Assembly: GCA_020049465.1 (NCBI GenBank) | Contig: JAIFKS010000028.1 | Span: forward strand, 1 to 64,000 | Length of the DNA: 64,000 bases | Direction of reading: 5' to 3' | From: a bacterium | GTDB taxonomy: Bacteria > Krumholzibacteriota > Krumholzibacteriia > LZORAL124-64-63 | Part shown: positions 12,490 through 61,608 of the stretch, in pieces | Numbering within the stretch: the stretch's first letter is position 1 | How the letters are laid out: each line of letters begins with the position of its first letter | Notes under the pieces: generated by a model | Told to the model about the DNA's origin: nothing | Databases searched by the model: none | The model's input: the letters and a program-made list of their open reading frames with translations, nothing else | Position numbers and translations under genes: made by a program

Positions 12490-12518
12490 CGCTCCCGCGA
12501 CAACCGGCAGTGACGATC

Positions 12519-12542
12519 AGGGCCGCCCTTCGGGGCGGCCCT
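12519..12542 (+). terminator. Hairpin terminator after the secreted protein
   Basis: AGGGCCGCC (12519-12527), a CTTCGG loop, then GGCGGCCCT (12534-12542): a 9-bp GC-rich stem 30 bases past the stop. Only a weak T tract follows. Confidence 0.7.
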
Positions 12543-12748
12543 TCGCGTGGCAATCCGAATCTGCTGGTGGCCGACGGATCATCTGCTATCATGGGGGGAG
12601 TATATGATTTCCGGGTGCGTCATCCCATGGCGGGGCGTCGCAGGACTTTTCAGGGTGGTCGGGCCGCCATCCAGAGCACGCGACACGCGTCCAGGGGACG
12701 CTGTGTCAAGTGCCTGCCCCGTGGAAACACGGGCACCCGGAGGTGGCC

Positions 12749-13099
12749 ATGTCCAGCAACCAGCGTCAGCGCGCCCAGGACTCTCCTGACCAACCCATCG
12801 GCTGTCTTCCTGCGATCCTGCGGACCTTCTGGATGGCGATCGGCAATCTCGGCCTGTTCTTCTGCGGCATGTTCGCGGCCCGGCAACCGGCGCCGTCAGC
12901 GCTCGACTTCGTCTATGTAGGGATCGTCATCACCCTGATCGTGGTGCGGTACCTGGACATCACCCGATTCCAGGGACAGACGGCCGACGGCGATCCTGCC
13001 ACCATCGCGCACTGGCGACGCTATGTGATCGGCCTGATCCCCACCGCAGCCGCGCTGTGGGTCTTCACGCGCTTCGCACGGGCCCAGGGCTGGATGTAG
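12749..13099 (+). CDS. Small integral membrane protein
   Basis: A 116-residue protein with three predicted hydrophobic helices (about residues 20-43, 52-72 and 90-108), a basic hydrophilic N-terminus and short loops. No family is recognised. The start at 12749 is set by a strong GGAGGT 4 bases upstream; an in-frame ATG 39 bases earlier lacks a ribosome site. A TATCAT at 12587-12592 preceded by TG could be an extended -10 element. It is a single gene ending in a clear terminator at 13116. Confidence 0.75.
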   Translation: MSSNQRQRAQDSPDQPIGCLPAILRTFWMAIGNLGLFFCGMFAARQPAPSALDFVYVGIVITLIVVRYLDITRFQGQTADGDPATIAHWRRYVIGLIPTAAALWVFTRFARAQGWM

Positions 13100-13115
13100 C
13101 AGCGCACGGCCAACA

Positions 13116-13145
13116 GAAAGGGCGCCGTCAATCCGGCGCCCTTTC
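13116..13145. terminator. Terminator between convergent genes
   Basis: GAAAGGGCGCC (13116-13126), an 8-base loop, then GGCGCCCTTTC (13135-13145): an 11-bp stem flanked by A and T residues. It serves the small membrane protein and possibly the convergent oxidoreductase. Confidence 0.8.
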
Positions 13146-13187
13146 TCGCTTCTGACGGCCTGACGGTTCAACCGGCGTCGCCGCCGA

Positions 13188-14555
13188 TCAGGCCGGCAGC
13201 TTCGCCAGTTCTTCCTTCAGCAGCACGGCGCCGCCGGCCAGGAAGTCGTCGCGCTTCAGTTCACCCTTGGCCAGTCGGGCCAACAGCGCCCGCTGCGCGC
13301 GGTAGTCGCGACTGTCCACGCCGGCCCGGCTCTGCAGCAGACGCCACGCCTTGCGGCGCTCCACGCACAGCAGCACCATCTGCCGCGACAGCGCGTACAG
13401 GCCCGCCTTGCCCTCGTTGTTCTCGGCCTTGATGTAGACGCCGAAGTCGGGAACAAAGACCGGGCTCTTCGGGTCGAACACGCGCCGGTGCACGACATCG
13501 TCCTGGGTCAGCAGGATCAGCATGTCGTCCAGGGCGACCATCGACTCCGTCTTCGCCGCGTCGACCTTCTTCACGTGCTGCCGGAAACGGGCCTCGGTCA
13601 CGGCGTAGTGCGCCACGGTGTAGTGCACCTTGTCGCCGGTCGACTTGAGGGTCGTCTCCCACCAGTCGTCCTTGTGCGCGGGGTTGCCCTTCATCTCGAT
13701 CGCTTCGGGGTAGGTCTCGCCCCGCGACGGGTTGAAGGTGAACTCGGGGATCAGGCGGCAGTCGCGCGCGCGCTGCGACTGCGTGGTCGATCCGTCGTCA
13801 CCCACCCCGTGCTCGGGCATGCAGGGCGTGAAACTCTGGATGAACGCGGTGCCACGGTACTCCAGAGCGTCGAGCAGCGACTTGTACAGCTTCGGCGCGT
13901 TGGCCATCGACACCTGGGCGATGTACGGCGAACCGTGCCCGGCGGTGAAGATCTCGGCCAGGCTCTTCTTCTCGGTCAGCTTGCCCTGCGTGGCGGCGCC
14001 GATCTGGTTCATGTCGAAACCGCCGGTGATCACCGAGGAATCTGAGTTCTGGCCACCGGTGTTCGAATAGACCTGCGTGTCCAGCATCAGCAGCTTCACG
14101 TTCGGGCGGCCCTGCAGCACCGCCTTCGACACGTTCTGGAAGCCGATGTCGCCCATGCCGCCGTCGCCGCCGATGCCCCAGGCCTTCGGCAGTTCGGCCA
14201 CTTCGCTGTCGGTCATCAGCACGTCGGAGAAGTGGGACAGTTCGAAGTACTCCGCCGGCGTCATCACCGCTTCGTCGCGGTCCAGGAGCGCGTCGGTCAG
14301 GCGCTCGGGGATCACCGAACGGCGCGCGTGGTCCTGGATGAACGCCTCGCCGAACAGCCAGGCCACGGTGGCGCCGTCCTGGAACAGCGAGTTCATCCAC
14401 GGGTACGGATGCGGATTGTTCGGGGGCGTCGAACCGAAGACGCTGTTGCAGCCGGTGTGGGCGCCCATCGCCATGACCGACATGCCGTTGGCCAGCCGGC
14501 CGTCCACGGCCTGGATGTCGCGGTGCGTCGACCACTTCGCGGTCCGCAATCGCAC
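13188..14555 (-). CDS. Pyruvate:ferredoxin oxidoreductase, C-terminal part (after a frameshift)
   Basis: About 455 residues in the -1/+2 frame relative to the upstream part. It holds most of the thiamine diphosphate domain: MGAHTGCNSVFG, then GDGGMGDIGFQN and MLDTQVYSNTGGQNS, which match the PFOR TPP/Mg2+ motif (GDG..., then TEVYSNTGGQ). An HGSPYIAQVSMAN pyrophosphate-side segment follows, then a C-terminal helical region. On its own it would lack the CxGCGE start of the TPP domain, so it is the tail of the gene starting at 17790. The apparent GTG start near 14555 has no convincing ribosome site. Total span 13188-17790 is 4603 bases (3n+1), consistent with one inserted base or two lost. Confidence 0.8.
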   Translation of the reverse strand: MRLRTAKWSTHRDIQAVDGRLANGMSVMAMGAHTGCNSVFGSTPPNNPHPYPWMNSLFQDGATVAWLFGEAFIQDHARRSVIPERLTDALLDRDEAVMTPAEYFELSHFSDVLMTDSEVAELPKAWGIGGDGGMGDIGFQNVSKAVLQGRPNVKLLMLDTQVYSNTGGQNSDSSVITGGFDMNQIGAATQGKLTEKKSLAEIFTAGHGSPYIAQVSMANAPKLYKSLLDALEYRGTAFIQSFTPCMPEHGVGDDGSTTQSQRARDCRLIPEFTFNPSRGETYPEAIEMKGNPAHKDDWWETTLKSTGDKVHYTVAHYAVTEARFRQHVKKVDAAKTESMVALDDMLILLTQDDVVHRRVFDPKSPVFVPDFGVYIKAENNEGKAGLYALSRQMVLLCVERRKAWRLLQSRAGVDSRDYRAQRALLARLAKGELKRDDFLAGGAVLLKEELAKLPA

Positions 14556-47232: not shown

Positions 47233-50109
47233 TCAACCCCCTGCGCGCAGGGCCGCAAGTCGTCGCCGCGCCTCGGCGACCTGCGGGAAACCGGGATCGG
47301 CGTGCTCCCAGGCCGCGAGGAACTTCTCGTATTCGGCGGCGGCCGCGGCGCCTTGCCCCATATCATCGCGGATCCGGGCCAGTTCGTAGCGGGCGATGAA
47401 GTGGGATCCGTAACGTTCGAGGAGACGCTCCATCGTCGCGGCCGCCTCGGGCAGGCGACCCAGGGCACGGCAGGCGCGTGCGCGCGTCCTCAGTTCGCCG
47501 GCGGACAGGCGCGTGATCCGTTCCAGTTTCGCCAGCGCGACGAGGGCGCTGTCCGGACGACCCTCGGCCAGCGAGAGCGCCGCTTCGGTGATGAGTGGGC
47601 CGTGACGGGACTGGACCGGATTCAGATCCGGCTGCGCGAGCCAGGCCGACCGCGCCGCACGCGCCGCGGCGAGCGAATCCGCCTGCGCGAGCGCATGCAC
47701 GCGCACCGACCCGAGCCACAACTGTGTCCACCTCGCAAGTTGCGACACGTCGATCCCGCGGAGGATCTCCAGGGCCTCCAGCGGCCGGTCCGCGACGAGC
47801 AGGAACCCGGCCTGGGCCACCCTCGGATCCGGCCCGCCCAGCAGCGATGCCTCGTCCAGCCATTGGCGCGCCGCCCGCAAACGTCCGGTGCCGGCGCAGA
47901 TCGTCGCCAGCCCCGGGAATTCGTTGTGTCCGGCCATGGCGACCCGACGTTGCACGGCGGACAGATCGGACTCCGCGAGCAGGCGTTCGAAGATCGCCTC
48001 GGCTTCGGCGGCGTCACCGCGCACGTTGGCGCAACGGGCCAGATCCAGTTGCCGGTCCCATTCGTCCGGTTCCAGGCGTCGCGCCTGCAGGAAGGCCACC
48101 GCCGCACTGTCCGGCTCGCCGGCGGCCAGATGCGCCTCGCCCAGAAGATCCCACCCGCGGGCCTTGCCGGGATGGCGCCGCAGGAAATCGGCGATGGCCG
48201 CGTAGGCTTCGGCTTCGCTGCCGCGGTAGATCAGGGCAAGGCATCGCAGCCGACCCAGGTGTTCGTCGTCAGGGAAGCGGCCAAGGCCCTGCTCGGCGAT
48301 CGCCTGCGTCTCGGGCCACATCCAGTACCAGAAGACGGCCTGGCAGTAGGTCTGCAGGATCAACCGGTCGTCCGGCCAGCGCGCCAGCATCTCCCGATAG
48401 ACGTCCAGCGCGGCCGGCAGGTCGCGGTCCATCTCCAGTCGACGCGATTCGAGCATCATGCGGTCCTTGATGCCCAGGTGTGACCGCAGACGCCAGGCGC
48501 GATCGGCGCAATCTTTGGCGGACGGCCCCATGCCGTTCAACCAGTGGATGGTCGCGATCCGCATCCAGGCGAGCGCGAAGGTCGAATCGATCCCGACCGC
48601 CGCCTGGAACCGCGGCAGGGCGTTGCGGAACTTCACTTCCCGAAAGGCCGCTTCACCCGCCACGAATTCCCGATAGGCCTCCGTCGAAGCCGTCGTGATC
48701 TCCCCCACCGATCCCGTTTCGTCCGGCGTGGCCGCCCGCCTGTCGCCGGCGATGAACGGCAGGACCTGGGCGATGATGCCGTCCGCCAGGCCGAACAAAT
48801 CCGCCGCGACGACGCGCTGCCCCCCCACGCCGCGTCCGCTCCCGGTCTCCACGAGTCGCCACACCGCGAACGTCGACCCGTCCCGCCGGCCGATCTGACC
48901 CAGCAACAGCAGTGACGCCCCCGCTTTGCGTGCCACTTCCAGAGCCTGATCCGCCCTGATGTCCCCCCGCTCACCCGTGAACAGCCGGCGACGCAGGTCC
49001 TGCAGGTATTCGGGACTCACCACGCGGATGGGACTGCGCTCGATCAGGCCGATCTGCAGCAACCCCTCGAGCCCCGCGACCGCCAGTGAATCCGGCACGC
49101 CGCCGAGATCAGCGAAGTCCACGACGGCCAGGGCGGCATCGCCTGACGACGGAGTCCGTCCCGGTCGCAGCAGCGCCCAGGCGCCCGCGGCGACCACGGC
49201 GAGCAGCGCCAGCAGCAGGGCCGCGGTCCGGATGCGCAGCGTGCGCCCGCGCACAGGCGGACGGACCACCGCGACCGTCACCGTCCGCGTCGCCTCCGGA
49301 TCCGCCCGCAATCGACGCAGATCCACCGCCAGTTCGTCCGCGTGCTGGTACCGCTGGCCGGCCTCTTTCGCCAGGCATTTGCCGACGATCCTCTCCAGTT
49401 CCAGCGGCACGCCCGTGCGCACGGCGGTCAGGGGTTCCGGTTCGCAGAACAGCAGGTTGTGCAGCAGGGCGGCGTCGTGATCGCCCGCGAACGGCCGCCG
49501 GCCACACACCATTTCGTACAGGACCACGCCCAGCGACCAGAGATCGGACCGGCCATCGGACTCCTCCCCGCGCGCCTGTTCGGGCGAGAGATAGGCCGCG
49601 GTCCCCATCGTCGAACCGCTGCGCGTCAGTTGCGACGCCCCCGCGACCCGCGCCAGCCCGAAGTCCATCACCTTCACCTGGCCCCGCGGGGTCAGCATGA
49701 TGTTGGCCGGCTTGATGTCGCGATGGACAACGCCCTTGCCGTGCGCTTCGTGCAGCGCCTCGGCGACCTGCAGCGCGATGGCCGCCGCTTCCGGAATCGG
49801 CAACGGTCCGTCCGCGATGCGGTCCCTCAGCGTTCGACCTTCGAGAAGGGACATGACGATGTAGGGCCGGCCATCGGCCTCGCCGGCTTCGTACACCGTG
49901 CAGATGCCGCTGTGGTCCAGGGCGGCGGCGGCCTTTGCTTCGTGGACGAAGCGGCGACGGGCCTCGGGGTCGGGATCCAGTCGCGGCGAGAGGAATTTGA
50001 CGGCCACCTGGCGGCCCAGCGCGAGGTCTTCGGCGCGGTAAACCACGCCCATGGCGCCGGAACCGAGTTCCGAGAGAATGCGGTAGTGGGCAACGGTGCG
50101 ACCGATCAT
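47233..50109 (-). CDS. Transmembrane Ser/Thr protein kinase with periplasmic TPR region
   Basis: A 958-residue Hanks-type kinase. Cytosolic kinase domain (10-270): GSGAMGVVYRA loop, VAVKFL (Lys38), HRDIKPAN (Asp131), DFG (Asp149) and YLSPEQARG activation segment. A membrane helix lies at about 293-314. Outside is a TolB/FlgO-like nucleotide-fold segment (ALAVVDFADLGGVPDSLAVAG, about 325-460), then roughly ten TPR-like helix pairs (ALPRFQAAVGIDSTFALAWM and others) to the C-terminus. All catalytic residues are present. It senses an envelope signal and phosphorylates unknown targets; such kinases are common in FCB and Acidobacteria. Start ATG at 50109, after GGGGG. The gene order gives no clear partner. 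Confidence 0.92.
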   Translation of the reverse strand: MIGRTVAHYRILSELGSGAMGVVYRAEDLALGRQVAVKFLSPRLDPDPEARRRFVHEAKAAAALDHSGICTVYEAGEADGRPYIVMSLLEGRTLRDRIADGPLPIPEAAAIALQVAEALHEAHGKGVVHRDIKPANIMLTPRGQVKVMDFGLARVAGASQLTRSGSTMGTAAYLSPEQARGEESDGRSDLWSLGVVLYEMVCGRRPFAGDHDAALLHNLLFCEPEPLTAVRTGVPLELERIVGKCLAKEAGQRYQHADELAVDLRRLRADPEATRTVTVAVVRPPVRGRTLRIRTAALLLALLAVVAAGAWALLRPGRTPSSGDAALAVVDFADLGGVPDSLAVAGLEGLLQIGLIERSPIRVVSPEYLQDLRRRLFTGERGDIRADQALEVARKAGASLLLLGQIGRRDGSTFAVWRLVETGSGRGVGGQRVVAADLFGLADGIIAQVLPFIAGDRRAATPDETGSVGEITTASTEAYREFVAGEAAFREVKFRNALPRFQAAVGIDSTFALAWMRIATIHWLNGMGPSAKDCADRAWRLRSHLGIKDRMMLESRRLEMDRDLPAALDVYREMLARWPDDRLILQTYCQAVFWYWMWPETQAIAEQGLGRFPDDEHLGRLRCLALIYRGSEAEAYAAIADFLRRHPGKARGWDLLGEAHLAAGEPDSAAVAFLQARRLEPDEWDRQLDLARCANVRGDAAEAEAIFERLLAESDLSAVQRRVAMAGHNEFPGLATICAGTGRLRAARQWLDEASLLGGPDPRVAQAGFLLVADRPLEALEILRGIDVSQLARWTQLWLGSVRVHALAQADSLAAARAARSAWLAQPDLNPVQSRHGPLITEAALSLAEGRPDSALVALAKLERITRLSAGELRTRARACRALGRLPEAAATMERLLERYGSHFIARYELARIRDDMGQGAAAAAEYEKFLAAWEHADPGFPQVAEARRRLAALRAGG

Positions 50110-50448
50110 GCGGAGCCCCCTGCGACACAGACGACGCAGACAGCGATGGACCGGGCGAATGATAATCAGCGTACCAACGCGGGCGAAGCGCCGCCAATGA
50201 AAACGGAATTGACATCGATTTTGAGATTCAGCGGCTTCGGCGGCGGCATCCGGCGCGGCAGGGCACCGATTCGACGGCAATGCGGATTGCGCGTGGTCCC
50301 CTGTCGGAACGGCAGGGCTGTCCGCTGCGATCGGGGACGCTCCCCGGATGCTTGATACGCCGGCCCATATATGGTTGATTGCATGACAATGGAATCGGGA
50401 ACCACGCGCCGGGATGTCGCGCGTCGCCGCCACTTGTTACGGGGAATC
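50110..50448. other. Divergent intergenic region
   Basis: About 340 bases between the kinase and UnbV genes. A TTGACA at 50209-50214 is a perfect -35 toward the UnbV gene, but no -10 stands at the right spacing. Otherwise nothing was seen. Confidence 0.45.
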
Positions 50449-52197
50449 ATGAATCGATCGCACCGCGCCGTCTTAGCCTGCCTTCTCGGCCTCTGGCTGC
50501 TGCCCGTCGGCGGCGCGGCGCAGACGCCGCTCGACAGCCGCCACCAACTCGGGCTGTTCCAGGATGTCCTGGGCGACACGGTCACGCAGCGGGCAGGCAC
50601 CTTTCGCGTCGAAGCCCGCCACCTGAAGCTGGTCCGCGATGTCGACGCCATGCCCGGCGATACGGGCGGCAACAACGGCGCGCTCGTCGTTCTGGACGCC
50701 GACGGCGACGGCGACCCCGATCTCCTGATCGCCAAGAGCCCGACTTATCCGGGATGTTCGGCACTGCTGCTGAACGACGGTACCGGGATCTTCACGACCT
50801 TTCACGGGACCGGACTTCCGGTTTACATCCAGGCGGCCGGGCGCGCCGACCTGGACAATGACGGACGGTGTGACCTGGTGCTGGTGGCCAGCGACGAGAC
50901 GGTTCGGCAAGAGCCGCCGAGCACGGCGCTGACCGACATCCGCGGCGACTTCGGGACCGTGCCGCTGCATGAAATCCGGGCGTTCCGCTCCATCGGCAAC
51001 GGCACCTTCGCGCCCGTGGCCGTGGTCGGTCCGGCTGCCGGGAACCCGGATGCCGGCGCGTGGCCGGCCGGCGGACGCTCCGCGTGGCACCATGTGGATC
51101 TGGCCGACATCGACCGGGACGGTCGCGTCGATCTGGTGGCCCGCGAACAGGTCGGCGTGCGCGGCGCCACCGACATGACGCGCGAACGGTTCTGGCTCCT
51201 GATCAACCGCGGCGACCGCCTCGAGGCGGTCCAGATGGTCGAAACGCGCGGCGACGGTTCGATCCTGATGGGCACGGCGGCCGCCACCTGCTTCGACGCT
51301 GACGGCGACGGCTGGACCGATCTGACGGTGGTGTCCGAAACCGGCTTTTTCGTGTTCGACGCGCCGGTGTTGGTGCACGCCAACCGGGGCGGACGATTCG
51401 CCGCCCGGCCCGACACGCTGGACGCCGACCGCGGCCCGAAGTCCATGGCTCCCCTCTGGTACGATGCCGACGCCGACGGTGACTTCGACCTGCTGGCCCT
51501 GCAGGCCGACGCCCAGGGCGGGCAGCACAGCATCTATCTGAACAACGGCGGCGGCAGTTGGCGTTCTTTGGGCGCGGCGTCCGGCCTGTGGAGCGCCTAT
51601 TCGCTGATGAGCGGCGCCGCCTGGGGCGATCTGGACCAGGACGGCCTGCAGGACCTGATTCCCTGCCTGAACGGCGCCGCGGTCTCGCCGATCGACATTC
51701 CGGTGCGGCGGAACCTGGGCCAGGGCCGATTCGGCACCGTGTGGACGGCGCTGACGCCTCCGTACCGCGCCGCCCTGTTCTACGCCGTCTGCGTCGATGT
51801 CGACGGGGACCTGGATCTGGATTTCATCGGCGCGCCGCTCACCCACTACGCCGAGAACGCACCGGCCGCCGACAACCCGGTCGCCCTGTACCGCAACACC
51901 TCGACTGTCGGCAGGGCCATCATGCTGAGTCTGGTCGGCACGCGCTCGAACCGCTCGGCCATCGGCGCGCGCGTCGAGGTGCGGTCGGGCGGCCGTCGGC
52001 AGGCCCTGATTGTCGGCGGCGGCGGCAGCACCGGTTCGATGCAGCCTCCGCTGGACCTGCACTGCGGACTGGGCGAGGCCGCCGCCGCCGAGCGCGTGAC
52101 GGTCAACTGGCCTTCGGGGCTGGTCGAATGGTGGGCCCAACTGGCGGCAGGGCGGCGCTGGGTGCTTACCGAGGGGACAGGGACAGCCGCGAACTGA
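50449..52197 (+). CDS. FG-GAP/VCBS protein with ASPIC/UnbV domain
   Basis: A 582-residue exported protein (signal about 1-24). Seven FG-GAP units with DxDxDG calcium loops (LDADGDGDPDLLI, ADLDNDGRCDLVL, ADIDRDGRVDLVA, CFDADGDGWTDLTV, YDADADGDFDLLA, GDLDQDGLQDLIP, VDVDGDLDLDFIG) fit a seven-bladed propeller. The C-terminal 120 residues match the ASPIC/UnbV (CRTAC1) module: AIMLSLVGTRSNRSAIGARVEVRSG, then GLGEAAAAERVTVNWPSG. It has no PNPFNP tail. Start 50449 with GGGGAA upstream. Its 3' end overlaps the convergent anti-sigma gene by 32 bases. Role unknown; possibly extracellular recognition. Confidence 0.87.
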   Translation: MNRSHRAVLACLLGLWLLPVGGAAQTPLDSRHQLGLFQDVLGDTVTQRAGTFRVEARHLKLVRDVDAMPGDTGGNNGALVVLDADGDGDPDLLIAKSPTYPGCSALLLNDGTGIFTTFHGTGLPVYIQAAGRADLDNDGRCDLVLVASDETVRQEPPSTALTDIRGDFGTVPLHEIRAFRSIGNGTFAPVAVVGPAAGNPDAGAWPAGGRSAWHHVDLADIDRDGRVDLVAREQVGVRGATDMTRERFWLLINRGDRLEAVQMVETRGDGSILMGTAAATCFDADGDGWTDLTVVSETGFFVFDAPVLVHANRGGRFAARPDTLDADRGPKSMAPLWYDADADGDFDLLALQADAQGGQHSIYLNNGGGSWRSLGAASGLWSAYSLMSGAAWGDLDQDGLQDLIPCLNGAAVSPIDIPVRRNLGQGRFGTVWTALTPPYRAALFYAVCVDVDGDLDLDFIGAPLTHYAENAPAADNPVALYRNTSTVGRAIMLSLVGTRSNRSAIGARVEVRSGGRRQALIVGGGGSTGSMQPPLDLHCGLGEAAAAERVTVNWPSGLVEWWAQLAAGRRWVLTEGTGTAAN

Positions 52198-52993
52198 ACG
52201 CCGTGGCGCCTTCGGGGCCGGCGATGGTGAGCGTTTTCGCGCCGGAACCGAGCGCCGCGGTCGGCGCCAGGAACGAGATCGCACGGCCGCCGGCGTCCCA
52301 GGCCGCGCCGATGGTGGTGGCCAGCCGCCACACTTCCCGGCCGGAGGACGCATCCTGGACGCGGATCAGCAGCGGCGTTTCGGCGGTGGCTCCCGGCAAT
52401 TGCCAGGGATCCCACATCACGACGAACGGGAGCGCGGGCGCCGCGGCGGGCACGGCGAAGGCGGGCAAGCCGTCGTCACGCAGATTTCCGGCCAGACGCA
52501 CCACCGGGACCGGCCCTTCCCAGGCCGCGGTTCCGGCCTCGGGACCGAAGGCGCGTTGCACCAGCATGCCCAGCGCCAGACCGGCCGCCAGCGAGGCGCC
52601 CAGAGTGGTCCAGCCGCCGAACCGGCGACCGCCGCCGGCCGGCTCCGCCTGGGGCGTCTCGATCAGTTCGGCGTGCACGCGGCGCACGGTCTGCAGTTCC
52701 CCGAAACACCCCGCGCAGCGGGCGATGTGGGCCGCCACCGCCTCGCGCTCGACGGGTTCGAGGTCTGCGGAAGCGCCGACGGCATAGGCCACCAGCGCGT
52801 CGGCAGCCGGATGCTCGGCCAGGAGCTTTCCGCGGTGGCGCCGCAGATCAGCGTCCAGCTGCTCCAGGAAGCGCAGCGTGTCGGCGCACTCCGGATGAGC
52901 GGCCACGTGGTCGGCCACGGCCTGGCGCTGTTCGGCGCTCATGCCGCCCTTGACGTACTCCACGAGCAGCTGGCTGGCTTCGCGATGGTCCAT
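52166..52993 (-). CDS. Membrane anti-sigma factor with zinc-finger modules
   Basis: A 275-residue protein. The N-terminal part carries HC2-type zinc-finger signatures: DHVAAHPECADTLRFLEQL and a clearer AHIARCAGCFGELQTV (H-x3-C-x2-C), typical of anti-sigma factors that clamp an ECF sigma. A single membrane helix lies near residues 127-147 (LGASLAAGLALGMLV), and the C-terminal 125 residues, beta-rich (PLLIRVQDASSGREVWRLA), should lie in the periplasm. It is divergent from the ECF sigma gene at 53112, 118 bases apart, which supports pairing. Its 3' end overlaps the UnbV gene. Probable role: hold the sigma factor until an envelope signal arrives. Confidence 0.85.
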   Translation of the reverse strand: MDHREASQLLVEYVKGGMSAEQRQAVADHVAAHPECADTLRFLEQLDADLRRHRGKLLAEHPAADALVAYAVGASADLEPVEREAVAAHIARCAGCFGELQTVRRVHAELIETPQAEPAGGGRRFGGWTTLGASLAAGLALGMLVQRAFGPEAGTAAWEGPVPVVRLAGNLRDDGLPAFAVPAAAPALPFVVMWDPWQLPGATAETPLLIRVQDASSGREVWRLATTIGAAWDAGGRAISFLAPTAALGSGAKTLTIAGPEGATAFSSRLSLSPR

Positions 52994-53111
52994 CTTCGTC
53001 CTTGGTCCGGGGATGAGCGTTGATATGTCGCACGACTTCCCCTAATGTTCAACTTTGATTGCGGTTCGCCTCGTTCCGGAGGCCCGCCCGATAGCCAACG
53101 ATCGCCGTGCC

Positions 53112-53687
53112 ATGACGATACGCAGACGCGCCCATGATCAGAACACCTCGCCCGGGGACGTCGATGACGTCACCTTTCTCCTGCTGTTTCGCCAGGGTGA
53201 CACCGCCGCCTGCCGGCGCGTGGAGTCCCAGATGCGCGCCGCGGTTCTTTCCGCCGGCCACCTGCCGGCCGACGATCTGCAGGATCTGCTGCAGGAGGCC
53301 TCGGTCCAGTTGTGGCGGTACGTGAGCGCCGACGGGTTCGTCCTGCGCGGCTCGTTCCGCAGCCTGGCCGTGCGCATTGCGCTGGCCCGCCGCATCGACC
53401 GCCACCGCCGGCAGCGCTTCCTGGTCGAACTGGACGAGGACCTGAAGGACGACGGCCGCAACGCCCTGGATCTGCTCCAGGAAAAGGACCGACTGACCCG
53501 GCTGCACCGGGCCCTGGGGGACATCCGCGAGCTCTGCCGCATCCTGGTGCGCGGACGATTCCTGGAAGACCGTTCCTACGAGGATCTGGGCACCGAACTG
53601 GGCCGCGCCCCCGAGACCCTGCGCGTGCACGTGCACCGCTGCCTGCGGGTGTTGCGCGGGATGATCGAAATCGGCGATAATCGATAG
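53112..53687 (+). CDS. ECF RNA polymerase sigma factor
   Basis: A 191-residue sigma-70 family protein of ECF size. Region 2: ADDLQDLLQEASVQLWRYV, then SFRSLAVRIALARRIDRHRRQR. Region 4: FLEDRSYEDLGTELGRAPETLRVHVHRCLRVLRG, which contains the DNA-binding helix-turn-helix. The start is uncertain: ATG 53112 (MTIRRRAHDQ) fits the family length, and an in-frame ATG at 53055 would add 19 residues; neither has a good ribosome site. It reads into the CHAT protease gene 35 bases downstream, a probable operon, and is divergent from its likely anti-sigma. Confidence 0.88.
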   Translation: MTIRRRAHDQNTSPGDVDDVTFLLLFRQGDTAACRRVESQMRAAVLSAGHLPADDLQDLLQEASVQLWRYVSADGFVLRGSFRSLAVRIALARRIDRHRRQRFLVELDEDLKDDGRNALDLLQEKDRLTRLHRALGDIRELCRILVRGRFLEDRSYEDLGTELGRAPETLRVHVHRCLRVLRGMIEIGDNR

Positions 53688-53722
53688 CATCCTGATGTGA
53701 TCGGAAGGAACGGCGGCATCTG

Positions 53723-56227
53723 ATGATCATGGGCCGGCGGATGTTTCTCGCGCTCGTGCTGGGCGCGGCCCTGGCCGCGTCGGCCCCGCCGTGCGCCGGG
53801 GCCTCGACCGTCAGGGCCGAGGATCTGTTCCGCGCCGGCGATTACGTCGCGGCCGCCGAACGCTTCGCCGCCTCCCTGTCCGCGCCGGCCGCCGCGGAGG
53901 GGCTCGCCACCGGACGCCTCCACTTCGACCTGGGTGTGTGCCGCCTGCGGCTGGGCCAGCTGGCCGAAGCCGAATACCAGATGAGGCGCGCACTGATCCT
54001 CATCGACGCCGACGCAGGCCCCGTCAGCACCGAAGGCGCCGCCGCCCGCGAGGGCCTGGCCACCGTCCTGATCAACCAGGGCAACATGATCGAGGCCGAA
54101 GAAGTCCTCAACGAAGCCCTGGCCACGCGCCGGAGACTGTGGGGCCCAGGCCACCCCCAGACGCTGCGGACCCTCGACCTGCTGGCGTCGGTGCACTGGC
54201 TCGACGGCGAACCGCAGAAGGCACTCGATCTCTACGTCCAGGTGATGTCCGGGCTGCGCGCCATCCACGGCAACGTGCACCCGCTGACCGCCACCACCGC
54301 CCAGAACATCGGCGCGGTGCAGATGGAGATCAACACCGACTTCGCGGCCGAAATCATGTTCCGGCAGGCCGTCTTCATCACCGAAGCCCTGTACGGTTCC
54401 GGCCATCCCGAGATGGTGGCGCCGTTGTGCGGCATGGGCGACATCATGGCGCGCGCCGGCATCCTGGACCGCGCGGTCCACTACTACGAGCGGGCGCTGA
54501 CGGCGATCGCCACCGGGAACCTGTCGTCGTTCGACGCCACCCAGGAGCGCGTGCGGGCGCTGATGGGCCTGGCCCGCGTGCGCGTCGCGCAGGACCGGCC
54601 CGCGGCGGCGCTTCCGCTGCTGACCGAAGCGGTGGCGCGGCACGACGAGTTGCGCGCCGTCGCCGGCGGCGACATGGAGGCGGCCACGATCGGCGGCTCG
54701 CCCCGGTCGTTGTTGGCCCACACGCTGCTGCTGCTGAACCGTCCCGAAGAAGGCTGGCAGGCGCTCGAAGGCGGCCGCGGGCGGCTGGGCGCGGCCTGGC
54801 GCGCGTCGCGGGGCGACAGCCTGAAGCTGCGGCTGCTCGAACTCGAATCCGCCCTGGCCACGGCCACCGACCCCGGTCTGAGGCAGCGACTGCAGGAGCA
54901 ATGGAACGAATGCGACGCCGCCGGCTCCGTGTTGACGGCCGCCGGCGGCACCGCGGGAGCCGCCACGGCGCGGGAAAGCGTGCAACAGCTGCTCGTCCGC
55001 GGCGACGTGCTGATCGGGTGGCTCGACGTGTCGCTGGCCCGCGGTCAGCGCGGCTCCTGGATCTACATCATGGAGCCGGGCCGCCCGGTGGCCTGGCGGC
55101 GTTTGCCCGACGCGCCGTGGGAAGAGACCACCCGCCTGCTGCACCGCTACCGCGAGGCCGTGGCCGAAGCATCGCCCTGGAACGAACGGTGGCCGGCGCT
55201 CGCCGACTCGGTGTGGACACTGCGTCTGGCCGCTGCGGCGACCGAACTGGCCGGCGCGCAGAGGCTGCTGGTGGTGACCGCGGCGCCCATGGGGGGCGTG
55301 CCGCTGGCGCCGCTGGGCCCCCGCGGCGGAACGGCGCTGCTCGAACGCTGCGAGATCCTCGCGGCGCCTTCAGCCCTGGACTTCACGCGGACCGGAGCCT
55401 CGCCCACACGCCTGCATCTGCGCCCAGCGCTGGTGGTGGCCGACCCTCCGTACGGCGGCCGTGCGACGATGCTGGCCTCGCGCCGGTCCGTCGGCGCGGA
55501 TTCGCTGGAGGTCGCGACGGCGGACACGTCCGCCGCGATGCCCGCCCTTACCGTGCTGCGCAGTGCGCTGGGACACAACCGCGGCGCGCTGGGCAGCCTG
55601 CCCCGCCTGACGGCCTCGAGAGACGAAGCGGCGTCCATCCGCACCGCGTTTCCGCTGGGGCCTTCGCTGCTGGGAGCCGAGGCCAGCGAATCCGGACTGA
55701 CGACCATGGCCCGCCGCGGCGCGCTGAAGGAGATGGGCCTCATCCACCTGGCGACGCACGCGCTGGTCGACTGCCGCGCGCCCGACCGTTCGGCGCTGGT
55801 GCTGGCCGACCGCGACGACGCCTCCGGGACCGGCAGTGACGGCCTGCTCACCGCGCGCGAAGTGCGCCTGGGCTGGGTTCTGGACGCGGATCTGGTGACG
55901 CTCTCCGCCTGCGAGACCGGCCTGGGCCGCCAGACATTCGACGACGGCATGTTGAGCCTGACCTCGGCCTTTTTCGCCGCCGGCGCCCGCAACGTCGTCA
56001 GCAGCCTGTGGAAGGTCGAAGACCAGGCCACGGCGAAGCTGATGTCGTATTTCTACGAGGAACTGGGCCGCAGCGATCCCCACGGGCGGCCCGTGACCGT
56101 GGCCGGAGCGCTGCGGGCGGCGCAGCTGCGGTTGCGGGGGTTCACGACCGTCGGCGGGACGCAGCCGTATGCGGGGGCCTGGGCCTGGGGCGGGTTTGTG
56201 GCCTACGGCGGCGCGGCGCGGCGCTGA
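53723..56227 (+). CDS. Secreted TPR-CHAT protease
   Basis: An 834-residue protein with a signal peptide (about 7-27). Residues about 30-280 are TPR repeats (AEYQMRRALILIDADAGP, AEEVLNEALATRRRLWGPGH, ALDLYVQVMSGLRAIHG, AVHYYERALTAIATG). The C-terminal third is a CHAT (caspase HetF-associated with TPRs) domain with the catalytic pair His679 (HLATHALVD) and Cys730 (LSACETGLGR). Other hallmarks are FFAAGARNVVSSLWKVED, where activity loops normally lie, and GGFVAYG at the end. It is predicted to be an active clan CD cysteine protease in the periplasm, with TPRs sensing a partner. It follows the ECF sigma gene by 35 bases, so the sigma probably controls it. Confidence 0.9.
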   Translation: MIMGRRMFLALVLGAALAASAPPCAGASTVRAEDLFRAGDYVAAAERFAASLSAPAAAEGLATGRLHFDLGVCRLRLGQLAEAEYQMRRALILIDADAGPVSTEGAAAREGLATVLINQGNMIEAEEVLNEALATRRRLWGPGHPQTLRTLDLLASVHWLDGEPQKALDLYVQVMSGLRAIHGNVHPLTATTAQNIGAVQMEINTDFAAEIMFRQAVFITEALYGSGHPEMVAPLCGMGDIMARAGILDRAVHYYERALTAIATGNLSSFDATQERVRALMGLARVRVAQDRPAAALPLLTEAVARHDELRAVAGGDMEAATIGGSPRSLLAHTLLLLNRPEEGWQALEGGRGRLGAAWRASRGDSLKLRLLELESALATATDPGLRQRLQEQWNECDAAGSVLTAAGGTAGAATARESVQQLLVRGDVLIGWLDVSLARGQRGSWIYIMEPGRPVAWRRLPDAPWEETTRLLHRYREAVAEASPWNERWPALADSVWTLRLAAAATELAGAQRLLVVTAAPMGGVPLAPLGPRGGTALLERCEILAAPSALDFTRTGASPTRLHLRPALVVADPPYGGRATMLASRRSVGADSLEVATADTSAAMPALTVLRSALGHNRGALGSLPRLTASRDEAASIRTAFPLGPSLLGAEASESGLTTMARRGALKEMGLIHLATHALVDCRAPDRSALVLADRDDASGTGSDGLLTAREVRLGWVLDADLVTLSACETGLGRQTFDDGMLSLTSAFFAAGARNVVSSLWKVEDQATAKLMSYFYEELGRSDPHGRPVTVAGALRAAQLRLRGFTTVGGTQPYAGAWAWGGFVAYGGAARR

Positions 56228-56256
56228 AGAATCCCTGAAAACTTCGCGTTGAGGGC

Positions 56257-57492
56257 CTACCGCACCAGCGTCACCCGACGCGCTGTGATGACCCCGTCGT
56301 ATTCCAGACGGGCCAGATAGACGCCGCTGGCCAGGTCCCCCGCGGAAAACGGCATCGCGTGGGAACCGGCTTCCAGGTGACCGTCGTGGAGCAAGGCCAG
56401 GCGACGCCCCGCCAGATCGTGGACCGACAGCCGCGCCGGACCCGACTGCGGAAGGGTGAACAGCAGCGTGGTGCGGGGATTGAACGGATTCGGCGCGACG
56501 TCGAGCCGGACCACGTCGCCCGGTTCCGGGACGGGTGCGGCCGGGGCGAAGACCTCCACGACCTCGAGCCCGCTGCCGCCGCAGGTGATGGCCACATGGC
56601 GGCCCATAACGCTCAACTGGATCGAGCTGCCCCCGGTGGCATACTCCGTCAGGATGACCGGCGCGGCGGGATCGGCCAGCGAAACCGCCAACAGACCCTG
56701 CATGCCCACCGCCACCAGCGCGACATCGCCGACCAGCGTGACTTCCGTGGCCAGGCCCACCGTCGGCACCGTGGCCAACAGCGAAGGCGCGGTGGGGACG
56801 CGGACGTCCAGCACCACCAGTCCACCGCCGCTATCGGCGACCACGCACAACCCGTTCGCCACGGCCAGACCGTTCGCTTCGCCCGCGGTGTTGAACGATC
56901 CCACTTCAGCCGGCAGGGCGGGGTTGCTGATGTCGATGATCCGGACGCCGGACGCGAAGTCGGCCACATAGGCCAACGATCCGGCCACGACCACATCGCT
57001 GGCCAGATCGGGCGTGTCCACCGCGCCCACGATGACGGGCGCCGCGGGATTGCCGATGTCGATCACCTGCAGGCCGAATCCCTTGTCGGCCACATAGGCG
57101 TACGAGCCGGCGACATCGACGCTCAACGCCAGACCCGGCGTGTCGACGGCGCCCGTCTCGCTCAGGGCCGAGGGCGTGGCCAGATCGATGACGCGCAGTC
57201 CGGAAGTCCGGTCGACCACGTAGGCCAGCGAGCCCACGATGACCGCGTTGCGGGCGAAGGCGGGCGTGTCCAGGCTGTCGAGGATCACGGGAGATTCGGG
57301 GATCGTCAGGTCGATCAGCATGACACCGGCATCATGCTGGCACACCAGGGCCAGATTCCCGGCAATGGCGACGCCGTACGCCTGCCCGCCGGTCGCGACC
57401 ACCGACGCCGGCAGGGGCGGGTCCAGCACCTGGGACCGGGTGGCGCCGGGCGCCAGGATCAGGGCAACGGCGGCGGCGGCGATGAGCTTCAT
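56257..57492 (-). CDS. Secreted LVIVD-repeat propeller with sorting tail
   Basis: A 411-residue protein with a signal peptide (MKLIAAAAVALILAPGATRS). Seven LVIVD repeats of about 42 residues (for example ALSVDVAGSYAYVADKGF, then GLQVIDIGNPAAP) make one likely seven-bladed propeller. The last 80 residues are the sorting-type domain (VAPNPFNPRTTLLFTLP, then SVHDLAGRRLALL and ASGVYLARLEYDG). LVIVD proteins are usually cell-surface or choice-of-anchor proteins. Start ATG 57492 with GGGAAG upstream. Convergent with the CHAT gene, 29 bases apart. Confidence 0.9.
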   Translation of the reverse strand: MKLIAAAAVALILAPGATRSQVLDPPLPASVVATGGQAYGVAIAGNLALVCQHDAGVMLIDLTIPESPVILDSLDTPAFARNAVIVGSLAYVVDRTSGLRVIDLATPSALSETGAVDTPGLALSVDVAGSYAYVADKGFGLQVIDIGNPAAPVIVGAVDTPDLASDVVVAGSLAYVADFASGVRIIDISNPALPAEVGSFNTAGEANGLAVANGLCVVADSGGGLVVLDVRVPTAPSLLATVPTVGLATEVTLVGDVALVAVGMQGLLAVSLADPAAPVILTEYATGGSSIQLSVMGRHVAITCGGSGLEVVEVFAPAAPVPEPGDVVRLDVAPNPFNPRTTLLFTLPQSGPARLSVHDLAGRRLALLHDGHLEAGSHAMPFSAGDLASGVYLARLEYDGVITARRVTLVR

Positions 57493-57653
57493 GAGCTTCC
57501 CGTTTCCTGGCACGAGGCGGCGTGGGATTGGAGAGCGCTCACGATAGGTAGAGGATGCGCGGGCCGCCAGGCGGCCCCCACCCGACGGCCAGTCCCGGAT
57601 CCCGCGCACCCGTCCGTGCACTGTTCATCCACGCGGCATCGTTCGCGGCGCGC

Positions 57654-59762
57654 TCAGCGCCCGCCGACCACCATCTTGCCGACAGCGACCCCGCCGCGAT
57701 TCTCGAGCCGGAGGAAATAGACGCCGAGCGGCGCGCGGGCCCCGCTCCGGTCGCGGCCATCCCATTCGAGACGATGCACCCCGGCAGCGGCCTGGCCATT
57801 GCCCAACGGCGTCACCAGACGGCCCCGCACATCGTAGATCCGCAGCGAGTATTCGCCTGCCTCGGGCAGCGCGTACTCGATCAACGCCCCGGACACACCG
57901 GCGCCGGCAAGAGCCCGGACCGCGAGCACCGTGGGGACGACGACCTGCGCGCCGTCGGACCCGGGATCGCCGGTCTCCAGAGTAACGGCGTCGTCCGCTG
58001 TGATCTCCAGATGCCCGACGCCCCAGAATTCGGTCCCGTTCGTCAACACTCCCGACACGACCGGCTCGAACGCGCCGGACTGCCCGGCAAGAGCGGTGCA
58101 GATCGGCGCACGCTTGAACTTGAAACTGCGCTCGGGCAGCCCGTCCACACCAACGCTGCCGACTTCGCTCAGCTTCGGGTTGGCCGGCACATTCACGCCG
58201 CCGACGCTCAGAATCGTGGCCGGCACCTGGATGTTGTTCACGGAATAGGGCGCCGGGAAGCCCACGAAGGCGGTCAGGACGCCGCCCGCGCTTTCCAGGT
58301 CGAGCTTTTCCGGCTGCAAGCGGACGGTCGCGTCGATCTTGATCGAGAAGTCCACCGACGAGGAGGACGTGTTGCCCGCCTTGTCCTCGGCCGTCAACAC
58401 GAGTGTGTGGAAACCGGCCAGGAGCGCCATGTCGAAGGTCTGGCCATCGGCGACCGGTTGCCCGTCGAGCGTGGCGGTGAAGCCGTAGAGGCCGGAAGGC
58501 TCATCGTCGGCTTCGTAATCGACCGTCAAGACACCCGACGACAGGTAGTGGCCGTCCGGCACAGGCGAGAGGATCGACAGAACCGGCGGCGTGCGGTCGA
58601 TCTTGACCATCTGCTGGTGCAGTTCCTCCTCGTTCCCGAACCGGTCCAGCGACTGGTAGCTGAAGTAGGTGATGCCCTCGTGGTCGATCAGCACCGGCTC
58701 CGTGTAGAGCACCGATGCGTACTGGTAACCGCCGTGTCGGGTCTCGTGGACGCCGGTGTAGTTGTCGTCCGCCGTCAGGTTCATGACGACGTTCCCCGGC
58801 CGCCAGCCCTCGTGCACCGAATCGGGGCCGGCGATCACCAGATGGGTCTCGGGCGGCACCGGGTCGATGGAGTCGCTCCACACCTCGTACAGACGCGCGG
58901 TGGCCGACACGGCGTAGGACGCGCACTTGTAGGCGATGTTCGAGAGCTTGCCGTCAACATCGGTGTCATTCTCGTCGCAGTCCACGAGATCATCCCTGGT
59001 ACGTGGCCTCGAAGGCCACCCGGTGTAGTCCACCCAGCCGTACCGCGTGTCCAGATTCCCGTCGTCGCCATCGGACGCGAAGTAGTCCGCCCGCTGGTTG
59101 GCCGTGTACATCAGGTAGTACAGCGGCGGCAACAGGTCGATCGGTCCGGGGCTGACGCCGCCCCAGGCGTCCATGATCTGCTGGATGATCTCGTCGGTGA
59201 TCGGCGGCACCGGCCCGTAAAGGTTGGCCACACCGGCGCTGACGTGGTAATGCCAACTCGCCATCCAGTTCTCGTAGGCATCGTCGGAGTGCTCGTCGTA
59301 GTGGGCGTGGGCCGGAACCGTCATGTCCGCGAGCAGGTGGCAGACATGGCCCAGGTAGTGGTAGGCCTCGAAGTGATTTCCGGCCAGATAGAAGTCGCGC
59401 GACCGGACGATCATGATCCGCGCCTTCATCCAGGCGTTCTCGTAGCCGTAGGCGCCCCACCAGTTGATCTGCTCGTCGCCTTCGTCGGCGATCCAGAAAT
59501 GGGGCAGCGTGATCCATTCCCCGCTCGTGTCGTAGACGTGGTCCGTTTCGTCTTCACACCAAGCGCCGAAAACGACAATGGGGAGATTGTCCATCAGATC
59601 AGGAAAAGCGAAGATCTCCGTGGCGGTGTTGACCAGGTGCTGGTGGGTCGCGTCGTTGTCGTAGGCGCGGACCGGCGGCGGCAGGACGAGCAGGACAGCC
59701 ACCACAATCAGGGGAAGAACGAATTGAGCCTGGGGAACACTGGCAAGTCGGGCGCGTGGCAT
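57654..59762 (-). CDS. Zinc-dependent phospholipase C-like exported protein with sorting tail
   Basis: A 702-residue protein with a signal peptide (about 13-33). Residues 34-290 fit the PLC/S1-P1 nuclease fold with a cluster of zinc-ligand candidates: THQHLVN (His40, His42), LPHFWIADEG (His88), and YHYLGHVCHLLADMTVPAHAH (His135, 139, 142, Asp146, His152, 154). In this family such residues bind three Zn2+ and hydrolyse phosphodiesters. Then come Ig-like domains (PPVLSILSPVPDGHYLSSG, ATLDGQPVADGQTFDM) and the sorting-type tail (IEYALPEAGEYSLRIYDVRG, then PLGVYFLRLENRG). Start ATG 59762 follows GGAGGT. Likely a secreted or surface phospholipase; substrate not established. Confidence 0.83.
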   Translation of the reverse strand: MPRARLASVPQAQFVLPLIVVAVLLVLPPPVRAYDNDATHQHLVNTATEIFAFPDLMDNLPIVVFGAWCEDETDHVYDTSGEWITLPHFWIADEGDEQINWWGAYGYENAWMKARIMIVRSRDFYLAGNHFEAYHYLGHVCHLLADMTVPAHAHYDEHSDDAYENWMASWHYHVSAGVANLYGPVPPITDEIIQQIMDAWGGVSPGPIDLLPPLYYLMYTANQRADYFASDGDDGNLDTRYGWVDYTGWPSRPRTRDDLVDCDENDTDVDGKLSNIAYKCASYAVSATARLYEVWSDSIDPVPPETHLVIAGPDSVHEGWRPGNVVMNLTADDNYTGVHETRHGGYQYASVLYTEPVLIDHEGITYFSYQSLDRFGNEEELHQQMVKIDRTPPVLSILSPVPDGHYLSSGVLTVDYEADDEPSGLYGFTATLDGQPVADGQTFDMALLAGFHTLVLTAEDKAGNTSSSSVDFSIKIDATVRLQPEKLDLESAGGVLTAFVGFPAPYSVNNIQVPATILSVGGVNVPANPKLSEVGSVGVDGLPERSFKFKRAPICTALAGQSGAFEPVVSGVLTNGTEFWGVGHLEITADDAVTLETGDPGSDGAQVVVPTVLAVRALAGAGVSGALIEYALPEAGEYSLRIYDVRGRLVTPLGNGQAAAGVHRLEWDGRDRSGARAPLGVYFLRLENRGGVAVGKMVVGGR

Positions 59763-59977
59763 GACGACCTCCAGGGAACGAGGGAGATCATCCCGTGCAG
59801 GCCCCCGGGGCGAATGGGACGATCGATTCCTCCGCGGAACAGTTCCTTCCTCATGGACGGTGGGGCCACAGCGGGACGAAGCGTACCACGAGCGTGCGCA
59901 GCGCAGCGGAAAATTTGTTGCAAAAAGAGAACAATTCCAGGAATCCAATGTCATTCAACGAGTTGCCAAACCCGCCG

Positions 59978-61120
59978 TCAGGGCGCCCACCTCACGGGCC
60001 GGAATCCGTAGTTGGCCGTCGAGTCCCCCGGGAAATAGAAGTACCGGTAGGCCGACCGGCAATAACGCGCGTCGATGTTCCAGCGCCCCCCGCGGAACAC
60101 CCTGTAGGAACCCGTTCCGGCGTCGTGCACCGGATCGACCGGATCCAGGTTCTGGTAATCCGTCCGGTAGGCGTCCCACACCCACTCCAGCATGTTGCCG
60201 TGCATGTCGCGCAGGCCCCAGTCGTTCGCCGGGAAGGATCCGACCACCGTGCGGGCGTTGCGGAAGATGCCGATCGCGCAGCCCGTCAGCTGCAGTTCGC
60301 TGCCCTTGTAGTTGGCCTCGGTGTCCGACGACAGGCAGTTCGTGTCGTTATGGAACGCCATCGTGGCGGTGGCCCGGCAGGCGTATTCCCACTCGGCCTC
60401 GGTCGGCAGGCGGTAGCCGTCGGCGCTCTGGTTCCAGGTCACGTTGTTGACGCCGGTTCCGATCGTGTACGCCGGTGTCAGGCCTTCCTGGATCGAGAGC
60501 GTGTTGCAGTACAGCACGGCGAGATCCCAGCTGACGTAGTTCTTCGGGATCTGCAGCGACGACGGCGTGCCGCCCATGACCTGGTACCACCGCTGTTCGG
60601 TCACTTCGGTCTGCGAGATGAAGAAGCCCCGCGTCAGGGTCACTTCGTGCCTGGTTTCGTTGGTGGCGCGACCGGGCTCGCCGACGGGGCTTCCCATCAG
60701 GAACACGCCGGGCGCGATGTAGGCGAAGCCGGGAGGCGGCGTCGGATTCCCCAGCTGGTCGTCGGCCAGCACCCGCAGGCGGACGTTGGTCCCGACGAGA
60801 CCCGGCTGATCCGCCGCGGCATTCCACTCGATGTGCCGCGAAAGACCGGGCAGGACCTCGTCGCCGACGGCACCCGTGACCGTCGTGCAGGACAACGGAA
60901 ACGTGGCTCCGCCATCGGTCGACAGCAGCAGCGAAACCGTGACCGCCATGTCGCCGACCGTCTGCAGGTCATAGGTGATGTCGAACAGCGCCGTGAATGG
61001 ACGCTGCGCCACCTGGACGTTGCTGACCACCAGTTCGGTCCCCTGGGCAGCGGCCGTCGCCGCGCCGAGCAGGAACAGAAGGATGAAGAGGACCGAAGGT
61101 GAACGCCCGGATGGATGCAT
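59978..61120 (-). CDS. Exported sulfatase-modifying-factor-like protein
   Basis: A 380-residue exported protein: signal about 8-26, an Ig-like domain (VQVAQRPFTALFDITYDL, about 30-125), then an FGE/SUMF1-type fold: PGVFLMGSPVGEPGR, YRLPTEAEWEYACRA, GLRDMHGNMLEWVWD and FRGGRWNIDARYCRSAYR. True formylglycine-generating enzymes need two neighbouring Cys in this last segment; only one is present, so it is probably a structural or ligand-binding relative. ATG 61120 was chosen for the signal peptide; an in-frame ATG at 61180 overlaps the preceding gene's stop (ATGA) and cannot be excluded. Probably cotranscribed with the 61177 gene. Confidence 0.85.
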   Translation of the reverse strand: MHPSGRSPSVLFILLFLLGAATAAAQGTELVVSNVQVAQRPFTALFDITYDLQTVGDMAVTVSLLLSTDGGATFPLSCTTVTGAVGDEVLPGLSRHIEWNAAADQPGLVGTNVRLRVLADDQLGNPTPPPGFAYIAPGVFLMGSPVGEPGRATNETRHEVTLTRGFFISQTEVTEQRWYQVMGGTPSSLQIPKNYVSWDLAVLYCNTLSIQEGLTPAYTIGTGVNNVTWNQSADGYRLPTEAEWEYACRATATMAFHNDTNCLSSDTEANYKGSELQLTGCAIGIFRNARTVVGSFPANDWGLRDMHGNMLEWVWDAYRTDYQNLDPVDPVHDAGTGSYRVFRGGRWNIDARYCRSAYRYFYFPGDSTANYGFRPVRWAP

Positions 61121-61176
61121 GTCGGCTGAACCTCGATTGAACGGGCCGCGGGCCGCAGGCGTGTGTTGCTGACGTC

Positions 61177-61608
61177 TCATCTGGCCAGCAGGAGCTTCAT
61201 GGTCTGCTCCTGCCCTCTGCAGACCAGGCGACAGATGTAGGCCCCCGACGGCACGATCCGGCCCTGCCGGTCCAGTCCGTTCCAGTTCGCCCGGTAGCTC
61301 CCGGCCGTACCCGATCCGGAGACGAGCATCTTCACCAGTCGGCCGCGCAGATCGAAGATCGCCAATTCAAGTTGTCCGTCGGCGGCCAGTTCGAAGGCGA
61401 TGGTCGTGCTGGGGTTGAACGGATTGGGCTGGATCGCGGCCAGACGCGTCATGGCGGGCAGACGGCCCGTCGGATCGTCCACACCCGTGATCGTGTCGAG
61501 CAAAAAGACATCGGAGTCGGCGTAGGCGACGGTCGCCCGGGCCGTGGCGGCGCCCAGCAGCACCACGACCGCGGCCAGGAACGGAACGAACCATGTGCGT
61601 ATGGGCAT
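61177..61608 (-). CDS. Orphan sorting-tail protein
   Basis: A 143-residue protein with a signal peptide (about 1-25), a linker of about 30 residues and then the same sorting-type domain as in the large surface proteins (AIQPNPFNPSTTIAFELA, then FDLRGRLVKMLV and PSGAYICRLVCRG). There is no cargo domain. A GGGGATAG site precedes the ATG. Its TGA overlaps an in-frame ATG of the next gene (ATGA). Either the stub of a larger protein or a free tail with its own role. It is about 20% of the usual length for proteins carrying this tail. Confidence 0.8.
   Translation of the reverse strand: MPIRTWFVPFLAAVVVLLGAATARATVAYADSDVFLLDTITGVDDPTGRLPAMTRLAAIQPNPFNPSTTIAFELAADGQLELAIFDLRGRLVKMLVSGSGTAGSYRANWNGLDRQGRIVPSGAYICRLVCRGQEQTMKLLLAR

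Follow-up and report, generated by a model that had tools for sequence, protein, structure and literature searches.

Exported TPR-CHAT Proteins Encoded Beside ECF Sigma Factors and Membrane Anti-Sigma Factors: Candidate First-Site Proteases

What role would an exported, caspase-like CHAT protease play when it is encoded beside an ECF sigma factor and a membrane anti-sigma factor? This question is raised by a locus in the window (the whole 64,000-nucleotide stretch of Krumholzibacteriota contig JAIFKS010000028.1 that was analyzed), for which a preliminary description had proposed that the TPRs of the protease sense damage, that CHAT cuts the anti-sigma factor, and that the released sigma factor makes more CHAT.

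Composition of the Locus

All three open reading frames of the trio were recovered at the positions given in Table 1, the spacing of 35 bp between the sigma factor and CHAT genes was confirmed, and the anti-sigma factor gene is divergent from both. The locus content as first described holds for the trio but missed a fourth, syntenic gene (FG-GAP/UnbV_ASPIC), and the first zinc-finger-like unit of the anti-sigma factor (H29..C36) is degenerate and is not conserved among relatives. A membrane Ser/Thr kinase with TPRs (47233-50109, minus strand) adjoins the cluster and is not kept near the trio in relatives.

Table 1. Features of the locus, with positions numbered from the first letter of the window.
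Feature	Position	Strand	Remarks
Exported FG-GAP/UnbV_ASPIC gene, fourth syntenic	50449-52197	+	Convergent with anti-sigma factor gene; 32-bp 3' overlap
Membrane anti-sigma factor gene	52166-52993	-	275 aa; helical N-terminal region that binds zinc, a single membrane helix, Ig-like domain in the periplasm
Candidate cleavage segment LAGNLR/DDG of anti-sigma factor, R172	52469-52495	-	Inferred; ~23 residues outside membrane
Anti-sigma factor membrane helix, residues 131-149	52547-52603	-	Model helix and hydropathy
Anti-sigma factor zinc motif H89-x3-C93-x2-C96	52706-52729	-	Invariant in 12 aligned relatives
TTGATA-17-TAATGT element between divergent genes	53019-53048	+	Genus-conserved; resembles a housekeeping-type promoter for sigma-CHAT
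ECF sigma factor gene	53112-53687	+	191 aa; alternative TTG start 53055
Exported TPR-CHAT protease gene	53723-56227	+	834 aa
CHAT protein signal peptide, residues 1-27, AxA site before S28	53723-53803	+	Sequence and rule-based test
CHAT peptidase domain, Pfam PF12770	55211-56209	+	Pfam match
Catalytic His679 of CHAT	55757-55759	+	Alignments
Catalytic Cys730 of CHAT	55910-55912	+	Alignments

The sigma factor, which has sigma2 and sigma4 only, was assigned to the ECF type by TIGR02937 (58.7 bits versus a cut-off of 42.9); its Pfam sigma-region matches fall below their own cut-offs. ATG 53112 is the most likely start, in preference to TTG 53055, since orthologs in the same genus begin at the same MTIR. 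The anti-sigma factor matched zf-HC2 in Pfam (32.5 bits versus a cut-off of 22.2) and contains HxxxCxxC (H89/C93/C96), and its best family relatives are ChrR-type anti-sigma factors, to which it scores below the cut-offs of those families. The AlphaFold2 model of this protein (mean pLDDT 75) comprises helices at residues 3-111, a helix at 131-149 at the same place as the hydrophobic span that aligns with the membrane helix of relatives, and an Ig-like beta domain at 165-274, which agrees with the earlier claim of a membrane-anchored protein with a periplasmic domain. A fold search with the anti-sigma factor returned generic Ig-like matches only, and none under an E-value of 0.001.

In the CHAT protein, a signal peptide is followed by a series of TPR helices and by the CHAT domain (Pfam CHAT, 165 bits versus a cut-off of 24; TPR_12, 106 bits), and its structure is predicted with confidence (mean pLDDT 85, pTM 0.85). 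Export, as earlier claimed, is borne out by the signal peptide (MIMGRRMFLALVLGAALAASAPPCAGA, ending in AGA before S at an AxA site). The proposed His679 and Cys730 also stand: both are invariant in 24 diverse aligned CHATs, the dyad is kept in nearly all ECF-linked CHATs, and the two residues align with the catalytic H615/C658 of Csx29.

CHAT-ECF Linkage Across Bacteria

GTDB species genomes were scanned with the CHAT alignment, and the hits together with the relatives amounted to 116 non-duplicate CHAT loci, at which the gene layout was taken from a six-frame ORF scan. An ECF sigma factor was encoded within 2 kb of CHAT at 45 of the 116 loci, whereas approximately 5% of genes would be expected to have an ECF within 2 kb by chance, based on the 26 ECF per 3.9 Mb in the window genome. 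Among the remaining loci, the ECF was at 2-4.5 kb in two, was further away in two, and was absent from the available stretch in 67. CHAT-ECF linkage is far above chance. Linked loci belong to the phylum of the window, Eiseniibacteriota, Bacteroidota, Gemmatimonadota, Acidobacteriota, Armatimonadota, and, in one case, Pseudomonadota, and the trio recurs in at least seven phyla; Roseomonas-type and cyanobacterial CHATs show no ECF linkage. Culturable species with the trio include Belliella aquatica and Chthonomonas calidirosea. The trio is thus conserved, the signal peptide of its CHAT holds, and its anti-sigma factor has a membrane helix, the three properties on which the preliminary description had staked its model.

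The gene order is variable, with CHAT before, after, or divergent from the sigma factor gene and on either strand, and mapping the ECF-link label onto the CHAT tree takes no fewer than 11 forced changes. An anti-sigma-like protein of ~200-300 aa with one membrane helix is encoded beside or between the two genes in nearly all linked loci. Many of these proteins contain HxxxCxxC, whereas most of those from Bacteroidota are without it and have a TPR-like periplasmic part. Mirror-tree comparison of CHAT and sigma factor yielded a correlation of 0.38 over all loci (0 of 2000 permutations as high); inside the phylum, the correlation of CHAT and sigma factor distances was weak (0.167; 136 of 2000 permutations as high). 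Additional arrangements include a second trio in the genome of the window (contig C104; L070, 3-2382), which is truncated by the contig end and has the order CHAT-sigma-anti-sigma, a zinc anti-sigma factor, and a CHAT with a C-terminal membrane helix, and a single sigma/anti-sigma pair that is flanked by two CHAT genes (L092, 6743-15724).

By a simple rule, 33 of 46 ECF-linked CHATs carry a signal peptide, compared with one of 46 sigma factor controls, and several of the ECF-linked CHATs that fail the rule carry a C-terminal membrane helix. The Chthonomonas CHAT has neither feature, and the partner at one Armatimonadota locus (L119) is soluble, without a membrane helix, and has the zinc-like motif HISSGCNEC. 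Because exported CHATs pair with membrane partners and the Chthonomonas CHAT without a signal pairs with a soluble partner, CHAT and the anti-sigma factor seem to occupy the same compartment, a co-variation of topology that represents one clade and one evolutionary event.

The arrangement of the window was also identified within its genus in two species (G002, G003), within its family in two further genera (G024, G013), and in one other family (G046), with a common order in which CHAT directly follows the sigma factor gene, the anti-sigma factor gene is divergent, and the fourth gene is convergent with the latter. This FG-GAP/UnbV_ASPIC gene shares 4-32 bp with the 3' end of the anti-sigma factor gene, and all window-type loci have this convergent overlap. 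Pfam and alignment confirmed the gene in the window and at L036, L039, and L040, and alignment confirmed it at L037; it was also identified in G046 (contig L168) and is syntenic in every window-type locus whose contig reaches far enough. The subtype is patchy, since profile searches detected the window-type anti-sigma factor in few of 80 genomes of the phylum. At L167 (G042, 8168-13525) and L170 (G040, 8820-13603), window-type sigma/anti-sigma pairs adjoin CHATs of distant lineages, as though one protease had been swapped for another. Exported proteins of the phylum often end in a W-G-x-[VLIM]-K-x-L-[YF]-[RK]-like signature (TWGDLKALYR), e.g., at L036 (4652-5146 and 11726-12448), L043 (5763-6398), and others, which is perhaps a sorting tail.

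Relationship to DdvA, Craspase, and Other Known Systems

A Foldseek search with the CHAT model recovered the Craspase TPR-CHAT first (E-value 5.4e-13), followed by the cryo-EM structure of DdvA (8rot; E-value 2.9e-12) and separase. DdvA is the anti-sigma factor of the ECF sigma factor DdvS in Myxococcus xanthus, and the signal that inactivates it is unknown (PMC4374960). At the sequence level, the CHAT-domain profile matched the DdvA chain (E-value 1.5e-7), in which His and Cys are retained, and a profile of the anti-sigma factors from the wider trio set matched the N-terminal anti-sigma domain of DdvA, the structure of which was solved separately (8rlz; E-value 1.4e-4). The DdvS-DdvA system (PDB 8rot, 8rw5, 8rlz; PMC4374960) is therefore alike in placing an ECF sigma factor under a transmembrane anti-sigma factor with homologous zinc and TPR-CHAT domains. 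However, DdvA is one fused polypeptide, whereas the locus described here has separate protease and anti-sigma factor genes, an anti-sigma factor with its own Ig-like periplasmic domain, and an attached ASPIC gene; no fusion of a zinc domain to CHAT was detected among the CHAT ORFs collected. DdvA joins in one chain partners that are separate here, which points to a joint function of CHAT and the anti-sigma factor and speaks against CHAT as a mere product of the sigma factor.

Craspase provides a cytosolic TPR-CHAT precedent, in which Csx29 cleaves the ECF sigma factor inhibitor Csx30 (PMC10028731). This type III-E CRISPR system (Csx29, Csx30, CASP-sigma; PMC10028731, PMC9729208) shares with the locus the TPR-CHAT fold, the aligned dyad, an ECF sigma factor, and a sigma factor inhibitor that is cut by the protease, the cut being only proposed here. 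Conversely, Craspase is cytosolic and is activated by crRNA-bound Cas7-11, and Csx30 is not a zinc membrane anti-sigma factor. The family model of Csx29 scored 24.2 bits against the window CHAT (cut-off 300), Pfam detected no cas-like genes among the eight genes at 47233-61180, and PADLOC returned no defense-system match for the four core proteins. The locus is homologous in parts to DdvA and Csx29, yet it is neither the fused protein nor the CRISPR-bound one.

Two further systems are similar in organization. As in RseA/DegS/RseP, the anti-sigma factor has a single span and a presumed first cut in a short periplasmic linker, and the site-2 protease RseP is encoded in the genome (G000:C39; 277 bits with its neighboring match); however, the first cut, made by a PDZ serine protease in that system, would fall here to a TPR-bearing cysteine protease of the caspase fold. 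The ECF54 group likewise has CHAT, subtilase, or carboxypeptidase genes near the ECF, with proteolytic control proposed, but it is described without an anti-sigma factor (PMC8999054), which is present here. The earlier statement that such a topology had not been described was too strong, as DdvA is a transmembrane anti-sigma factor with CHAT and the TPR-CHAT of Craspase cuts an ECF sigma factor inhibitor (PMC10028731). No description of the form with separate genes and an exported CHAT was found in the literature searched, the coverage of which was partial.

An Arginine Motif in the Anti-Sigma Linker and Possible Modes of Action

Past the membrane helix, the anti-sigma factors of the trios have in common an Arg with Gly, Ser, Ala, or Asp as the next residue, irrespective of whether an Ig-like or a TPR-like domain comes after it, and R172 is invariant in the window-type family. 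Since R[GSADTN] is expected often by chance, a raw count of it past the membrane helix was dropped and a motif search against shuffled sequences was used. A Gibbs-type search of 38 CHAT-linked anti-sigma factors, with no preset sites, yielded 170 nats versus 141 ± 8 for shuffled sequences (maximum of 156 among 25), with the consensus xVLR[G/S] (LR[G/S]-like) and a dominant Arg column. The controls were 20 neighbors of CHAT-less ECFs, not all of them likely to be anti-sigma factors; for these the search yielded 77 nats versus 71 ± 9 for shuffled sequences, the shared motif being absent from control anti-sigma factors. With sites assigned by eye, the Arg lies a median of 22 residues (9-31) from the end of the membrane helix.

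Leave-one-out motif scores separated trio from control anti-sigma factors only moderately (AUC 0.70). The top-scoring control, L200, reached 11.3 bits and the next 7.4 bits; more DNA from L200 showed that a CHAT gene lies divergent from the sigma factor gene there and encodes an exported protein with a membrane helix at its C-terminus, and the motif had therefore flagged an unseen trio. In the three soluble Chthonomonas partners, the shuffle test for the motif was not significant. On the enzyme side, the S1 Asp of separase (D2151) reads the P1 Arg (PMC9729208), and its position, counted from the catalytic Cys, falls at A771 of the window CHAT with no acidic residue aligned there; the enzyme therefore gives no confirmation of Arg specificity. 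D767 was rejected as evidence of such specificity: it is invariant but is also present in CHATs without an ECF, and it is A771 to which the separase Asp counts. The motif could be a structural element or a binding site.

The recurrence of the trio in at least seven phyla and the shared arginine motif on the brake (i.e., the anti-sigma factor) suggest that the protease cuts the brake to switch the sigma factor on. The best explanation, in which we place moderate confidence, is that CHAT cuts the anti-sigma factor at the linker Arg and that RseP frees the sigma factor; we infer the cut, its site, the cue, and the release. The mode of action of the trio most likely resembles regulated proteolysis of the RseA type, with a caspase-fold enzyme making the first cut. 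In such a scheme, the cytoplasmic zinc domain of the anti-sigma factor would hold the ECF sigma factor inactive until a periplasmic cue, acting through the TPR part, activates the exported protease. CHAT would then cut in the short periplasmic linker at the conserved R172, removing the periplasmic domain and leaving a stub of ~23 residues that RseP would process to free the sigma factor. The FG-GAP/ASPIC protein of the window-type subfamily probably serves as a cue, as a target, or as an accessory of the sensor. The earlier proposal that CHAT may cut the anti-sigma factor gains comparative support from the DdvA fusion, the shared Arg motif, and the catalytic dyad. The proposal that the TPRs sense damage is not supported, as nothing was found for or against it.

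It is rather improbable that CHAT is instead a non- or partly proteolytic sensor that binds the periplasmic domain of the anti-sigma factor and alters its state, with the Arg motif as a docking site. Such a role would be in keeping with the binding of peptides by TPR parts, with the DdvA fusion, which equally fits a sensor domain in cis, and with the position of the motif at the start of the folded periplasmic domain in the model. However, a pure scaffold would have no need of the catalytic His and Cys, which do not vary among 24 diverse CHATs and which nearly all ECF-linked CHATs retain.

We regard as somewhat less probable still that CHAT is an output of the sigma factor, i.e., an exported stress protease with other targets that is kept beside its regulator. 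Genes regulated by an ECF often neighbor it, and the sigma factor and CHAT genes are 35 bp apart or overlapping within the genus and are therefore co-transcribed. This reading is difficult to reconcile with the persistence of the association in different phyla whatever the gene order and the strand of CHAT, with the fusion of CHAT to the anti-sigma factor in DdvA, and with an anti-sigma motif that tracks CHAT. The promoter of the operon also argues against it, being neither of a distinct ECF type nor present in copies elsewhere. The genus keeps a block with TTGATA-17-TAATGT in the divergent intergenic region, and promoter-like sequences precede the sigma factor gene at L040 (TTGACC-17-TACGCT) and L052 (TTGAAC-17-TACTGT); these sigma-CHAT promoters look like the housekeeping type rather than a distinct ECF type. 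The block occurs once per genome, with no second copy within 3 mismatches in the genomes of the genus, for which reason autoregulation via this element was set aside, and no sigma factor regulon was found. Given the housekeeping-like promoters and the single copy of the block, the positive feedback that had been proposed, in which the sigma factor makes more CHAT, is unsupported.

It is very unlikely that the periplasmic domain of the anti-sigma factor restrains CHAT (cf. securin/separase) and that the true substrate is another exported protein such as the FG-GAP/ASPIC neighbor: the synteny of the ASPIC gene at window-type loci and the restraint of separase, a eukaryotic relative, by an inhibitor (PMC9729208) would fit, but other trio types are without an ASPIC gene and their anti-sigma factors still have the motif.

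If cleavage of the anti-sigma factor by CHAT is extended beyond this subfamily, TPR-CHATs might be general, overlooked first-site proteases for ECF signaling in at least seven phyla, encoded as separate genes or fused (DdvA), that cut the anti-sigma factor after an LR[G/S]-like Arg ~22 residues outside the membrane, with the sigma factor pathway of Craspase as a cytosolic offshoot; we advance this generalization tentatively. If true, a caspase-fold enzyme would be added to the short list of mechanisms known to switch ECF sigma factors, a function would be provided for a large set of uncharacterized exported CHAT proteins in environmental bacteria, and the sigma factor branch of Craspase would have a plausible ancestor. 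Activation of DdvA would also be directly testable, as the positions to mutate are given by the conserved catalytic dyad and the linker motif. Finally, CHAT-less ECF genes at L188, L189, L192, L198, L204, L205, L209, and L210 adjoin genes for long TPR proteins of other kinds, which match the TPR part of the CHAT profile.
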